Positions 8,919-18,616 of a stretch of DNA of 43,580 nucleotides are shown piece by piece. Source of the DNA: Candidatus Gastranaerophilales bacterium (lineage in GTDB: Bacteria; Cyanobacteriota; Vampirovibrionia; Gastranaerophilales; Gastranaerophilaceae); assembly GCA_944326585.1 (NCBI GenBank), contig CALVEN010000011.1:1-43580 (forward strand), given 5' to 3'. Positions within the stretch are counted from its first letter, which is position 1; each line of letters opens with the position of its first letter. Position numbers and translations under genes: made by a program. The notes under the pieces were generated by a model. It searched no databases, had not been told where the DNA came from, and saw only the letters and a list, made by a program, of their open reading frames with translations.

Positions 8919-9314
8919 ATGACAGAACGATTACAAATATACCGCTGTGAAGTCTGCGGAAATATTGTGCAGGTCTTAATAGAAGGTCATGGCGAACTTG
9001 TATGCTGCGGGGAACCTATGACATTATTAAGTCCTAAAATTAATGAAAACGAAGGCTTGGAAAAACATATTCCGGTTTTTGAACAAAATGAAAACGGCGA
9101 ATTGATTATCCGTGTAGGTTCAACGCCGCATCCTATGATTGACGAACATTATATTCAATTTATTGAAACAATTTCCGACGACAGACAAAAAGTTTGTCTT
9201 AAATATTTAAAACCCGGTATGGCGCCGGAAATTATAATTGACACAACAAAAGATAACATTACGGCTTATGAATATTGTAATATTCACGGGCTGTGGGAGG
9301 GCAAAAATGATTAG
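8919..9314 (+). CDS. dfx: Desulfoferrodoxin (superoxide reductase)
   Basis: 131 aa, cytosolic. It reduces superoxide to hydrogen peroxide without making oxygen, the usual defence in anaerobes. The N-terminal desulforedoxin iron site has all four cysteines (Cys10, Cys13, Cys29, Cys30). The catalytic iron site has His50, His71, His77, Cys120 and His123, with the EKH motif (48-50) that holds the catalytic lysine, so this is a two-iron class I enzyme. ATG 8919 is preceded by GGGAGGT; longer upstream readings lack a ribosome site. A small hairpin (TTATTC-TCC-GAATAA, 8893-8907) lies just before that site. It overlaps the ferritin gene by 8 nt. Confidence 0.95.
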   Translation: MTERLQIYRCEVCGNIVQVLIEGHGELVCCGEPMTLLSPKINENEGLEKHIPVFEQNENGELIIRVGSTPHPMIDEHYIQFIETISDDRQKVCLKYLKPGMAPEIIIDTTKDNITAYEYCNIHGLWEGKND

Positions 9315-9816
9315 TGATAAAGTAAAAAATATTTTGAATGAACAAATTAACAAAGAATTTTATTCCGCGTATCTTTATCTTGCAATGTCTGCGTATTTTG
9401 ACGATATGGGTTTGTACGGTTTTGCAAACTGGACAAAGGTTCAGGCAAAAGAAGAAGTCGATCACGGTATGATAATTTTTGACTATATGATTGACCGTGA
9501 TACAAAAGTTCAATTAAAACAAATTGACGTGCCCGATATGAATTTCACCTCACCCTTGCAGGTTTTTGAAAAAATTCTTGATCACGAACTTTATGTAACT
9601 TCATCAATAGAATCTATTGCAAATCTTTCGATGGATGAATGCGACCTTGCAACGCGTAATTTTATAAACTGGTACCTGAAAGAACAGGTTGAAGAAGAAA
9701 AAAATGCACGCGACATTATAACAAGCCTTAAACTTTTCGGCGATGAAAAGGCGTCTTTGTATCTTTTGAATGATGAACTTGCAAAGCGTGAATATCACAA
9801 GCACGAATACAATTAA
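9307..9816 (+). CDS. ftnA: Ferritin (non-haem, bacterial type)
   Basis: 169 aa. The ferroxidase ligands match E. coli FtnA numbering: Glu17, Glu50, His53, Glu94, Gln127 and Glu130. It oxidises Fe(II) and stores it as a mineral core in a 24-mer shell. The start at 9307 lies inside the end of the desulfoferrodoxin gene (8-nt overlap) with GGAGGG upstream, so the two proteins are made together: superoxide reductase makes peroxide while ferritin removes the iron that would react with it. Confidence 0.94.
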   Translation: MISDKVKNILNEQINKEFYSAYLYLAMSAYFDDMGLYGFANWTKVQAKEEVDHGMIIFDYMIDRDTKVQLKQIDVPDMNFTSPLQVFEKILDHELYVTSSIESIANLSMDECDLATRNFINWYLKEQVEEEKNARDIITSLKLFGDEKASLYLLNDELAKREYHKHEYN

Positions 9817-15051: not shown

Positions 15052-16170
15052 TCAATTTGCAAAATAATTTCTGATAATCTTCTCAATTTTTTGGGAAGAT
15101 TTTCCGTTACCGTAAGGGTTTTGAGCCTGAAGTCTTGAGCCTGATTTTGATTTGGAAAGCACTTCTTCGCTGTAGTCAATAATTTTATCATAATCCGCGC
15201 CTACAAGCACCGAAACTCCCGCGTCAATTCCTTCCTGACGCTCGGTTTCATAGCGCATTACAAGTGTCGGGCAGCCGAAAGAGGGGGCTTCTTCTTGAAT
15301 TCCGCCGGAATCTGTCAAAATTAATTTGGCATTTTTCATTAAATACACAAGATAAGGATAATCAAGCGGCTTTAATAATTTAATCTGAGGGTATTTGCTG
15401 AGCCGTGAATGAATTTTATCGTGCACATTGGGGTTCGGGTGCACGGGAATGACAAAAGTATGATCCGAATATTCTTTTGCAAGATATTCAATCGCATCAA
15501 TAATCCTGTCAATTCTTGCCCCGTGGTTTTCGCGCCTGTGTGCCGTTATTAAAACGAGTTTATCATCAACAGGAATTTGATTTTTACGAAAGAATTCCGC
15601 AGCCTTATTTAAAACCTCGTCAGACAAACAAAAAAGCGCATCAATAACTGTATTGCCCGTAACAAAAATTTTATCCTCAGAAATATTTTCTTTTAAAAGC
15701 GCCTCTCTATTTTTTTTAGTAGGGGCAAAATTCAATTCTGCAACGCGGGTTGTCATCTGGCGCATAATTTCTTCCGGAAACGGCTCATAAATATCATAAG
15801 ATCTTAAACCCGCCTCTACGTGGAATACGGGAATTTTGCGGTAATAGCTTGCAAGCGCCCCACACAAAACCGTCATTGTGTCACCTTGCACTATTGTTGC
15901 GTCAAACGAATTTTCTTCAAAAACTTTATCCAGTGCTGTCAAAATTCTGCTTTGAACAGAAATCAGCGACTGATTTTCTCTCATACAGTCAAGGTTGATA
16001 TCAGCTTTTAGTCCGAAATATTCAAGGGTCTGGTTTGACAATTCTTTTTGCTGCTCGGTGTTACAAATAACTACATTGTACTCATGCGGATATTTCCTGA
16101 GTTCAAGTATAACCGGAGCAAGCTTTATAACCTCCGGACGGGTTCCGAATACTACCAATATGTTTTTCAT
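15052..16170 (-). CDS. wecB: UDP-N-acetylglucosamine 2-epimerase (non-hydrolysing)
   Basis: 372 aa, the usual length. It converts UDP-GlcNAc to UDP-ManNAc for surface polysaccharide or teichoic-acid-type linkage units. Motifs: VVFGTRPEVIKLAPV at the start, VQGDTMTV (catalytic Asp), FHVEAGLRS (Glu), EPFPEEIMRQ (Glu), ITAHRRENHG (His) and LTDSGGIQEEAP (nucleotide binding). All catalytic residues are present. Single minus-strand gene. No Shine-Dalgarno; TATAAT lies 12 nt before the ATG, predicting a leader of about 6 nt. Confidence 0.95.
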   Translation of the reverse strand: MKNILVVFGTRPEVIKLAPVILELRKYPHEYNVVICNTEQQKELSNQTLEYFGLKADINLDCMRENQSLISVQSRILTALDKVFEENSFDATIVQGDTMTVLCGALASYYRKIPVFHVEAGLRSYDIYEPFPEEIMRQMTTRVAELNFAPTKKNREALLKENISEDKIFVTGNTVIDALFCLSDEVLNKAAEFFRKNQIPVDDKLVLITAHRRENHGARIDRIIDAIEYLAKEYSDHTFVIPVHPNPNVHDKIHSRLSKYPQIKLLKPLDYPYLVYLMKNAKLILTDSGGIQEEAPSFGCPTLVMRYETERQEGIDAGVSVLVGADYDKIIDYSEEVLSKSKSGSRLQAQNPYGNGKSSQKIEKIIRNYFAN

Positions 16171-16281: not shown

Positions 16282-16512
16282 ATGATTGATTTATATGTTT
16301 TGGAAACCTGCCCGTATTGCAGGAAAGTAATGGATTTTTTAGAAGAAAATAATATTTCGTACAATAAATTTGATATAACTGACCCCGAAAATCATGTAAA
16401 ACTTCTGGATTTGGGCGGGTCTGATCAGGTACCTTTTTTATATGACAGTAAAAATAATATTAAAATGTACGAGTCAGATGATATCATTGCATACATGACA
16501 AAAAGGTGTTGA
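16282..16512 (+). CDS. Glutaredoxin
   Basis: 76 aa with the thioredoxin fold: redox motif CPYC (Cys10, Cys13) and the cis-proline motif QVPFL. It reduces disulfides or mixed glutathione/low-molecular-thiol disulfides. CGGAGG precedes the start. The next gene begins 4 nt after its stop, so it is co-transcribed with a hybrid-cluster-protein homologue. That pairing suggests thiol or nitrosothiol chemistry, but the partner has lost its cluster ligands. Confidence 0.9.
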   Translation: MIDLYVLETCPYCRKVMDFLEENNISYNKFDITDPENHVKLLDLGGSDQVPFLYDSKNNIKMYESDDIIAYMTKRC

Positions 16513-16515
16513 GAT

Positions 16516-18102
16516 ATGTATAACAGGGAAAATTTATTTGAATATAATGAATGCACCGGACGCGGTATGTGTTCGATATTTCCGGCAGTGTCATCTTTTC
16601 AGGAAGTTATGCTGGTTATATACAGGACAATGAGTTATTATATTTTAAAGTCCGAAAATTTAGGCGAAGATTTGAGTGAAATAAAAACAAAGGTTATAGA
16701 CGGGATTTCAAATCTGATATCTACTACCGGTTATTCGGATGAACAACTTTTAAGCATTATCATAAGCAGCTACAGTGACCTTATAAAAATCAGGAAAAAA
16801 TACGTCAATATATGTAAAGCACAAAATCTTACGTGTAAAGATATAAAACTTACGTTAAAACTTACGCCTGATATGAGTTTTTCTGACGTAATCGCACTCG
16901 GGCACAAGACAATTACTGATAAAAACAAAAAAATGGATTCCGAACAAAAATGCTATTCGGAATTGTTGTTTGTTGTAATAAAGAGTGTTTCTTTGAGTTT
17001 AGTCAAGCTTTTTGATTACGGTTTATCTGATAAAGAGGCTGTGGATGAGGTTTTGGCAGGTTTGTCCGTACTAAATTTCAGCAGATTTTCCGTAAACAAG
17101 GCTAAAAAAATTATTAAAAAGTTGGCAGAATGTGACTTAAGGTTGTGGAAAAAACGTGAAGCCGCACAGCAAAAAAGTTTCGGCAATATCACGCAAACAA
17201 GCGTTTCTTTTTCAACAAAACCCGGTAAAGCAATACTTGTTTCGGGGTCTTGCCTGAATGATTTAAAAAATGTACTCGAGTCGGTAAATGATATTGATGT
17301 GTACACTCACGGCGATTTGTTAATCGCGCACGCCTTTGAAAAATTTAACTATTACAAAAATTTAAAAGGACATTTTGGAACGTCAAGCGACAATTGCGTT
17401 CTGGATTTTGCGACGTTTCCCGGAGCAATTCTTCTTACAAAGCACGCAACTCAGAATATAGAATTTTTAATCCGCGGCAGACTGTTTACGACTGACGATA
17501 TAGCGCCGAAAGGTGTTTTAAGCGTATCGGATGAAGATTTTTCACAGGTTATTAAAGCTGCTAATGACTCAAAAGGCTTTTCAAAAGGGCGGAACAAGGA
17601 GCCGCAGTCCGTCGGATTTAATTATGAAGACGTTAAAGAAAAAATAACTGAATTAACCCAAATGTTCAATTCAGGACAATTGCGGCACCTGTTTATACTT
17701 GGAATGTCAAACTTCAGCTATGAACAAAACGATTATTTCAAAAATTTTTTAAAAAACATGCCGGATGATTGCTTTGTAATAAGTTTTTCATATGATTTTG
17801 ATTATAAAAATTTGTTTCACATAAACGTTGTGAACAATTTTCCCCTGCAGCTTTCGGTTTTGGAACTTTTATTTGACAAAATACCCGTAAACTCCGAAAA
17901 ATTAACTTTTTTCCTTACAAAATGCGATTCTAACACAATATCTATGATGGTTAATTTGAAGCAAAAGGGTGTCAAAAATATTTACCTTGCAAACTGTCCT
18001 CCGACAGTGATAAATCCGGCAGTTATGGCATCTTTTATGAATTTATACTCTATTTTGCCGATAACAGATGCAAAGAGTGATCTGGAAAATATTTTAAAAT
18101 AA
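16516..18102 (+). CDS. Hybrid cluster protein (Hcp/prismane) homologue without cluster ligands
   Basis: 528 aa, close to Hcp length, and alignable by eye over most of it: LVSGSCLNDL for LVSGHDLxDL, DVYTHGDLL for DVYTHGEML, GHFGTS, GAILLTKHA for GPILMTTNC, LFTTDDIAP, DFSQVIKAA, HLFILGMSN for HIFLVGGCD, KGVKNIYL and YSILPITDA. Canonical Hcp reduces hydroxylamine or nitric oxide at an Fe-S-O cluster held by His, two Glu and four Cys. Here these are Ser245, Asp267, Ala311, Ser398, Tyr426, about Val439 and Asp471. Of the four N-terminal cluster cysteines only two remain (Cys13, Cys19, correct spacing). It therefore probably binds no hybrid cluster. AAAAGG lies 8 nt before the start. A structural or regulatory role is inferred. 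Confidence 0.82.
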   Translation: MYNRENLFEYNECTGRGMCSIFPAVSSFQEVMLVIYRTMSYYILKSENLGEDLSEIKTKVIDGISNLISTTGYSDEQLLSIIISSYSDLIKIRKKYVNICKAQNLTCKDIKLTLKLTPDMSFSDVIALGHKTITDKNKKMDSEQKCYSELLFVVIKSVSLSLVKLFDYGLSDKEAVDEVLAGLSVLNFSRFSVNKAKKIIKKLAECDLRLWKKREAAQQKSFGNITQTSVSFSTKPGKAILVSGSCLNDLKNVLESVNDIDVYTHGDLLIAHAFEKFNYYKNLKGHFGTSSDNCVLDFATFPGAILLTKHATQNIEFLIRGRLFTTDDIAPKGVLSVSDEDFSQVIKAANDSKGFSKGRNKEPQSVGFNYEDVKEKITELTQMFNSGQLRHLFILGMSNFSYEQNDYFKNFLKNMPDDCFVISFSYDFDYKNLFHINVVNNFPLQLSVLELLFDKIPVNSEKLTFFLTKCDSNTISMMVNLKQKGVKNIYLANCPPTVINPAVMASFMNLYSILPITDAKSDLENILK

Positions 18103-18103
18103 C

Positions 18104-18129
18104 AAAAAAGCCCCTTTCGGGACTTTTTT
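18104..18129. terminator. Bidirectional terminator between the Hcp homologue and rpsG
   Basis: A7-type flanks enclose a CCC/GGG stem. The minus-strand reading AAAAAAGTCCCGAAAGGGGC has a GAAA tetraloop and ends in T6, the stronger direction, serving rpsL-rpsG; the plus strand also ends in T6. Confidence 0.88.
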
Positions 18130-18145
18130 GTATTTATAACCAAAA

Positions 18146-18616
18146 TTAGTATCTATAGTGAGCAAATGCTTTGTTAGCTTCTGCCATTTTGTGGGTGTCT
18201 TCGCGTTTTTTGCAAGCAGCACCCTGACCGTTTGAAGCATCAATAAGCTCGTTGGTTAATTTATCAATAAATGATTTGCCGTGGCGCTTTTTAGCTGCTT
18301 CAATAAGCCATGAAGATGCAAGAGCAAAGCCTCTGTCAGCTTTAACTTCAATAGGCACCTGATATGTAGAACCGCCGATACGTCTTGCTTTAACTTCCAA
18401 TAACGGAGTTGCATTAGCTAACGCTTTCTGGAATAAATCCATCGGTTTTTCGTTGGTTCTTTCTTCAATTTTAGTCATTGTAGAATAAAAAATCTTTTCA
18501 GCGAGAGATTTTTTACCGCGTCTCATAATTCTGTTGATAAATTTTGAAATATCAACACTGTTGTATACCGGATCCGCCAACGGTACTCTTTTTGCCGGTT
18601 TAGAACGTCTTGACAT
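18146..18616 (-). CDS. rpsG: 30S ribosomal protein S7
   Basis: 156 aa, full length. Starts [20 protein letters not shown] and contains the RNA-binding KARRIGGSTYQVPIEV block; it nucleates assembly of the 16S 3' domain and lines the exit site. Its ATG overlaps the rpsL stop by one base (TAATG), with GGGAGG inside the end of rpsL. A terminator follows directly, so fusA and tuf, which usually continue the str operon, are not here. Confidence 0.98.
   Translation of the reverse strand: MSRRSKPAKRVPLADPVYNSVDISKFINRIMRRGKKSLAEKIFYSTMTKIEERTNEKPMDLFQKALANATPLLEVKARRIGGSTYQVPIEVKADRGFALASSWLIEAAKKRHGKSFIDKLTNELIDASNGQGAACKKREDTHKMAEANKAFAHYRY

Follow-up and report, generated by a model that had tools for sequence, protein, structure and literature searches.

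The window analysed here, a stretch of 43,580 nucleotides from a Candidatus Gastranaerophilales bacterium, encodes a 528-residue homologue of the hybrid cluster proteins (Hcps), termed HcpL below, which keeps the fold of these enzymes, lacks all seven ligands of their hybrid cluster and lies directly downstream of a glutaredoxin. Judged by its residues, HcpL is predicted no longer to build the hybrid Fe-S-O cluster. The leading reading, put forward tentatively, is that it is a dithiol protein on an Hcp scaffold that is recycled by glutathione and glutaredoxin. Hcp and CODH are classic examples of metallocluster enzymes. The wider proposal, that their fold has given rise to a thiol enzyme that works without a cluster, has gained a cysteine pair where the active site used to be and has twice recruited a glutaredoxin as its dedicated reductant, is possible and is offered with slightly greater reserve. 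Within the Gastranaerophilales, a large order of gut bacteria that are non-photosynthetic relatives of cyanobacteria, an ancestral iron enzyme seems to have been converted to a different function. If so, the HcpL branch would show a metalloenzyme being rebuilt into a thiol protein, with the fold kept, the ligands dropped and a cysteine pair gained, and HcpL and its glutaredoxin would together be a hitherto unexamined module of a gut lineage that is for the most part uncultured.

The genome behind the window is 1.7 Mb in size and 99.7% complete, and the window is its contig 11. The glutaredoxin gene (16282..16512, + strand), which encodes a GST_N_3/YruB-like protein of 76 aa, is separated by 3 nt (16513-16515) from the HcpL gene (16516..18102, + strand); the sequence-only reading that preceded this analysis had correctly placed a glutaredoxin upstream, at a distance of 4 nt rather than 3. 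The pair is flanked by a UDP-GlcNAc 2-epimerase-like gene (15052-16170) and by rpsG (18146-18616), and because both of these lie on the - strand and the internal gap is so short, glutaredoxin and HcpL look like an isolated two-gene unit and would form a small transcription unit, or operon. A terminator-like hairpin of 13 pairs, which a scan picked up as a consensus match only, occupies the interval between HcpL and the convergent rpsG (18102..18131); it is near-symmetric, with an A-run, a stem and a T-run, and is left without a strand here, having been reported on the - strand. About 7 kb upstream of the pair, a desulfoferrodoxin (superoxide reductase-type) gene directly followed by a ferritin-like gene (8919-9813) makes up an oxidative-stress pair.

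HcpL matches the Pfam Prismane family (PF03063) with an E-value of 3.6e-25 and 89.1 bits, against a gathering threshold of 27. The NCBIfam hydroxylamine reductase profile is likewise matched over the whole length (residues 9-527), although at 197 bits the score is only about half of the curated cut-offs of 360-367. Annotation that relied on Pfam alone could nevertheless label these proteins hydroxylamine reductases. An AlphaFold2 model built from 81 sequences has a mean pLDDT of 88.1 and a pTM of 0.88, with only residues 1-21 and 313-317 below a pLDDT of 50. Hcps are the structures closest to it (TM up to 0.81, 7de4; Z 31-38), among them 1e1d, which aligns over 504 residues with a Z of 32.0, whilst CODHs come next with a Z of ~20.

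When the ligands in Desulfovibrio vulgaris Hcp numbering are mapped onto the window protein, H244, E268, C312 and C406 fall on S245, D267, A311 and S398, and C434, C459 and E494 on Y426, V439 and D471, so that none of the seven is kept. Two alignment methods are concordant at five of these columns; the Y426 column is a gap in the phmmer alignment and the V439 column is uncertain, its loop being shortened, and both loops are prone to indels. A Cys, His or Glu ligand was sought within 4 residues of each ligand column of the window protein and none was restored, whilst across its relatives the correct residue lies no more than 4 positions away in about 1-21%, depending on the ligand. Of the N-terminal cluster, C3 and C6 are lost and C15 and C21 are kept as C13 and C19, the remaining half of the [4Fe-4S] motif (C13-x5-C19; codons 16552..16572, + strand), each of which is 90% conserved in HcpL and lies in the tail modelled with a pLDDT below 50. 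Fifteen canonical Hcps from the host family and class, placed in the same alignment, have all seven hybrid-cluster ligands. The sequence-only reading had given the seven residues as Ser, Asp, Ala, Ser, Tyr, Val and Asp, had counted two of the four N-terminal cluster cysteines as gone and had taken the fold and the reading frame to be kept, and all of this is borne out by the alignments, the model and the intact 528-aa frame. Since C13/C19 and C470/C494 remain, freedom from every Fe-S cluster is a prediction only.

The same losses extend across a family. From 215 extracted proteins, 205 distinct ones remained after the removal of 10 duplicates between collections, and these fall into 190 with 0-3 of the seven ligands (HcpL) and 15 with all seven, with none between. 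The substitutions are family-wide and hence reflect more than chance. Divergent members are over-represented among the 190 HcpL, which come nearly all from the host family within the order Gastranaerophilales, and a maximum-likelihood tree of 87 of the distinct proteins separates HcpL from the canonical Hcps with 99% SH-aLRT, a support value that comes from a short search. HcpL is present in 15 of the 16 genomes of the host genus, and an Hcp-related match of either kind occurs in 182 of the 191 genomes of the family. A 96%-identical protein is encoded on a public contig labelled Candidatus Gastranaerophilales, which places the host in that order. Intact frames of ~480-560 aa occur in nearly all host-family genomes, and dN/dS values of 0.04-0.14 indicate purifying selection, slightly above the 0.04-0.06 of canonical Hcp; with the spread across the genus, this agrees with the earlier suggestion that the protein is selected for another job. 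Viral contigs yielded no relative of HcpL, and an origin from phage was accordingly rejected.

What the canonical proteins lack and HcpL has gained is a pair of cysteines beside the former active site. C470 (codons 17923..17928, + strand, together with D471 of the Glu494 ligand column) immediately precedes the seventh-ligand column, where canonical Hcp has Tyr (Tyr or Phe in 15 of 15), and is conserved in 95% of HcpL; its partner C494 (codon 17995..17997, + strand) replaces Thr, Ser or Asn in the 15 canonical proteins. Conserved cysteines that come and go together, as a recycled dithiol would have them, are what the 190 distinct HcpL display: 181 have both, 9 neither and none a single one. On a FastTree tree, whose underlying alignment included the two columns themselves, there are five state changes, each hitting both residues, and a sign test for co-loss gives p 0.0625, the minimum that only five events can yield. 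The joint presence or absence of C470 and C494 could also come from a structural disulfide or from ligation of a metal by both.

Strands 463-467 and 489-491 succeed one another in a beta-alpha-beta unit of the AlphaFold2 model; C470 comes after the first of them and C494 after the second. In the Hcp of M. marburgensis, the N-terminal region becomes disordered when its cluster is lost, and the loops around Glu434 and Trp461 move by 5.3-5.8 A, that of Glu434 towards the solvent side (PMC10502027). Glu434 corresponds to the D471 column of HcpL, and counting residues puts Trp461 four positions beyond the C494 column, so that these loops would be the counterparts of those that carry C470 and C494. 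We infer that the two cysteines lie close together and that loss of the [4Fe-4S] domain opens their loops to access.

The window glutaredoxin is itself ordinary. It matches Pfam GST_N_3 (1.2e-10) and Glutaredoxin (2.4e-9; PF00462, 37.7 bits against 22.9) and has a TCPYC motif (C10 and C13), a cis-Pro loop QVPFL and a C-terminal MYESDDII that resembles a glutathione site. Among 25 orthologues, C10, Q49-F52 and Y63-S65 are invariant and C13 is Cys or Ser, a variation compatible with a monothiol mechanism. The window's genome holds a second, ordinary glutaredoxin gene and, in common with its genus, the glutathione-synthesis genes GCS2 and GSH-S_ATP (GshB-type), from which the host probably makes glutathione.

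In the best 80 of 195 public relatives, those whose loci were read, a glutaredoxin stands directly upstream of HcpL in 80 of 80, at spacings from a 14 nt overlap to a 56 nt gap. Since wecB and rpsG both flank the pair in 70 of these 80 loci, this is largely one conserved neighbourhood, and linkage at that single site would alone be weak evidence. However, the usual neighbours are all absent in 7 of the 80 and the glutaredoxin is still adjacent (e.g. L095 and L110, beside tig-clpP-clpX-like genes), and a second HcpL branch, at another genomic site, has a different, GrxC-like glutaredoxin upstream in 11 of 12 distinct members sampled (L199, L210, L218-L220, L222, L224, L233, L234, L250 and L251; L194 is without). 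The linkage is therefore not a mere by-product of synteny, and inheritance of the second pairing from the genome's own housekeeping Grx3 locus was rejected, as the neighbours differ. The GrxC type also occurs beside L161, an isolated deep relative, and here as in the second branch the glutaredoxin gene lies 2-27 nt upstream of HcpL. Four second-branch loci that were fully read (L199, L210, L219 and L224) have the order TPR gene (~256 aa), GrxC-type glutaredoxin, HcpL, and a role for the TPR protein in this unit is possible. That HcpL has been paired at least twice, with glutaredoxins of different kinds, is difficult to put down to chance.

The partnership is common, not universal. In the divergence-enriched sample, 79 of 190 HcpL have no adjacent glutaredoxin and 73 of these 79 keep the cysteine pair, so either HcpL can do without the partner or a glutaredoxin encoded elsewhere takes its place; conversely, L273 and L274 are linked to a glutaredoxin yet have lost C470 and C494, and no association between glutaredoxin presence and the cysteine pair was found across the tree. 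The sequence-only reading had recognized the ligand loss, the selection and the glutaredoxin link, and had missed both the C470/C494 pair and the second glutaredoxin pairing.

Under the recycled-dithiol reading, HcpL would present C470 and C494 at the edge of an emptied pocket, in loops that follow consecutive beta strands. The pair would cycle between dithiol and disulfide (or a mixed disulfide or nitrosothiol), acting on a client thiol or on a small substrate in oxidised or nitrosated form, and would be re-reduced by the co-encoded glutaredoxin and glutathione; the disordered C13-x5-C19 tail may hand electrons on. A flexible cysteine tail passes electrons in class I ribonucleotide reductase. 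Reported activities of Hcp include NO reduction, weak peroxidase activity and trans-nitrosylation (PMC10210160), and by analogy NO-, peroxide- and nitrosothiol-related substrates are natural first candidates for HcpL.

Two other accounts of the conserved cysteines have to be weighed against this one. HcpL could be a non-catalytic pseudoenzyme, that is, a scaffold or a sensor (e.g. of NO, of thiol state or of canonical Hcp) whose disulfide is structural or regulatory and is reset by glutaredoxin. Several ligand columns have no fixed replacement, tandem HcpL copies occur in some genomes, and canonical Hcp is also present in 9 of the 15 family genomes looked at, all of which would suit such a role. 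However, no Prismane-family protein other than HcpL was found in the window's genome, so HcpL cannot act on a canonical Hcp there, and strongly conserved residues around the former active site (Y263, D297, F301, G303, R320 and G321) suggest a pocket in use; we regard this account as rather unlikely.

Alternatively, C13, C19, C470 and C494 could jointly ligate an Fe-S cluster, or Zn, where the proximal [4Fe-4S] cluster used to sit, two of its ligands having been exchanged for others, with the glutaredoxin delivering or repairing the cluster. Most HcpL carry all four cysteines, and some glutaredoxins are known to carry [2Fe-2S] clusters. The loops equivalent to those of C470 and C494 adjoin the [4Fe-4S]-binding domain in Hcp (PMC10502027). 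The two pairs, however, evolve independently: 7 of the 9 proteins without C470/C494 keep the Cx5C motif, an independent-pairs test of C13 against C470 counts no co-loss in 7, and HcpL paired with a GrxC-type glutaredoxin, L161 excepted, combine C470 and C494 with a single N-terminal cysteine. This disfavours a single four-cysteine site in all HcpL; in the model, residues 1-21 are disordered as well, although AlphaFold2 places no metals. A rebuilt metal site is thus judged unlikely, a shade more so than a pseudoenzyme. That HcpL is an ordinary NO or hydroxylamine reductase and that misalignment conceals its ligands, for which only the overall Hcp fold and the Prismane match speak, is highly improbable given the concordant columns, the failure to recover any ligand nearby, the scores far below the equivalog cut-offs and the correct alignment of canonical paralogues. 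A decaying gene, to which the variable ligand columns might point, is more improbable still and is refuted by the dN/dS values and the conserved frames.

With Hcp classes I and II (prismane, hydroxylamine reductase), HcpL shares the fold over its whole length, including a class I/II-type middle region, and part of the N-terminal cysteine motif; it differs in having no hybrid-cluster ligands, in missing two N-terminal cluster cysteines, in the new C470/C494 and in its neighbour, a glutaredoxin instead of an Hcr-type reductase. Ni,Fe-CODH and CODH-V belong to the same superfamily, with 10-12% identity at their distant fold match. The CODH ligands are equivalent to Hcp H193, C261, C347, C375 and C400 (Mm numbering; PMC10502027); the corresponding columns are lost in HcpL, which thus lacks the C-cluster set, and no CODH accessory gene was recognized among the neighbours seen. 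The likeness to glutaredoxin-dependent thiol enzymes (class I ribonucleotide reductase, Grx-coupled peroxiredoxins and Grx-dependent ArsC) is one of analogy only, in that an internal cysteine pair and a possible flexible cysteine tail would be re-reduced by glutaredoxin; the folds are unrelated and the activity of HcpL is hypothetical. Its partners are, by sequence (CPY[CS], cis-Pro loop), ordinary YruB/Grx2-like and GrxC-type glutaredoxins that stand apart in having HcpL as a neighbour.

Neither a cluster-less Hcp lineage nor a Grx-Hcp module was found described in the open-access literature, outside which lie many subscription works, Hcp reviews included; this matches the earlier impression that no module of glutaredoxin and pseudo-Hcp is on record. 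Searches that paired 'hybrid cluster protein' with Gastranaerophilales, or Melainabacteria with hydroxylamine reductase, found nothing, nor did one for Tyr493, and of the papers that name both Hcp and glutaredoxin none appears, from titles and abstracts, to describe such a module. A 2026 survey of 1,545 Hcp sequences checked key clusters and fold in its selection and reports that Fe-S proteins, regulators and oxidoreductases are often encoded nearby (PMC13056359).

Individual members of the family add further detail. Double and triple tandem copies include three different HcpL genes 7-14 nt apart and without a glutaredoxin (L193:1620-6485), the middle one without the N-terminal Cx5C. A short branch of 474-501 aa (L162-L167, L169, L172 and L175) is missing part of the C-terminal loop region and keeps C13/C19 and C470/C494, with no glutaredoxin neighbour. 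L173 and L174, from another family of the order, have C13/C19, no C470/C494 and two of the seven ligands left, possibly an early stage of cluster loss. In genome G023, the canonical Hcp gene (L182) is broken by an in-frame TAA and an intact HcpL is retained. Finally, L095, titled Fusobacterium sp., encodes a protein 92% identical to a Melainabacteria-labelled HcpL, and L101, titled Brachyspira sp., has Gastranaerophilales-like neighbours (wecB, rpsG and rpsL, 78-98%); both are probably mislabelled MAGs.
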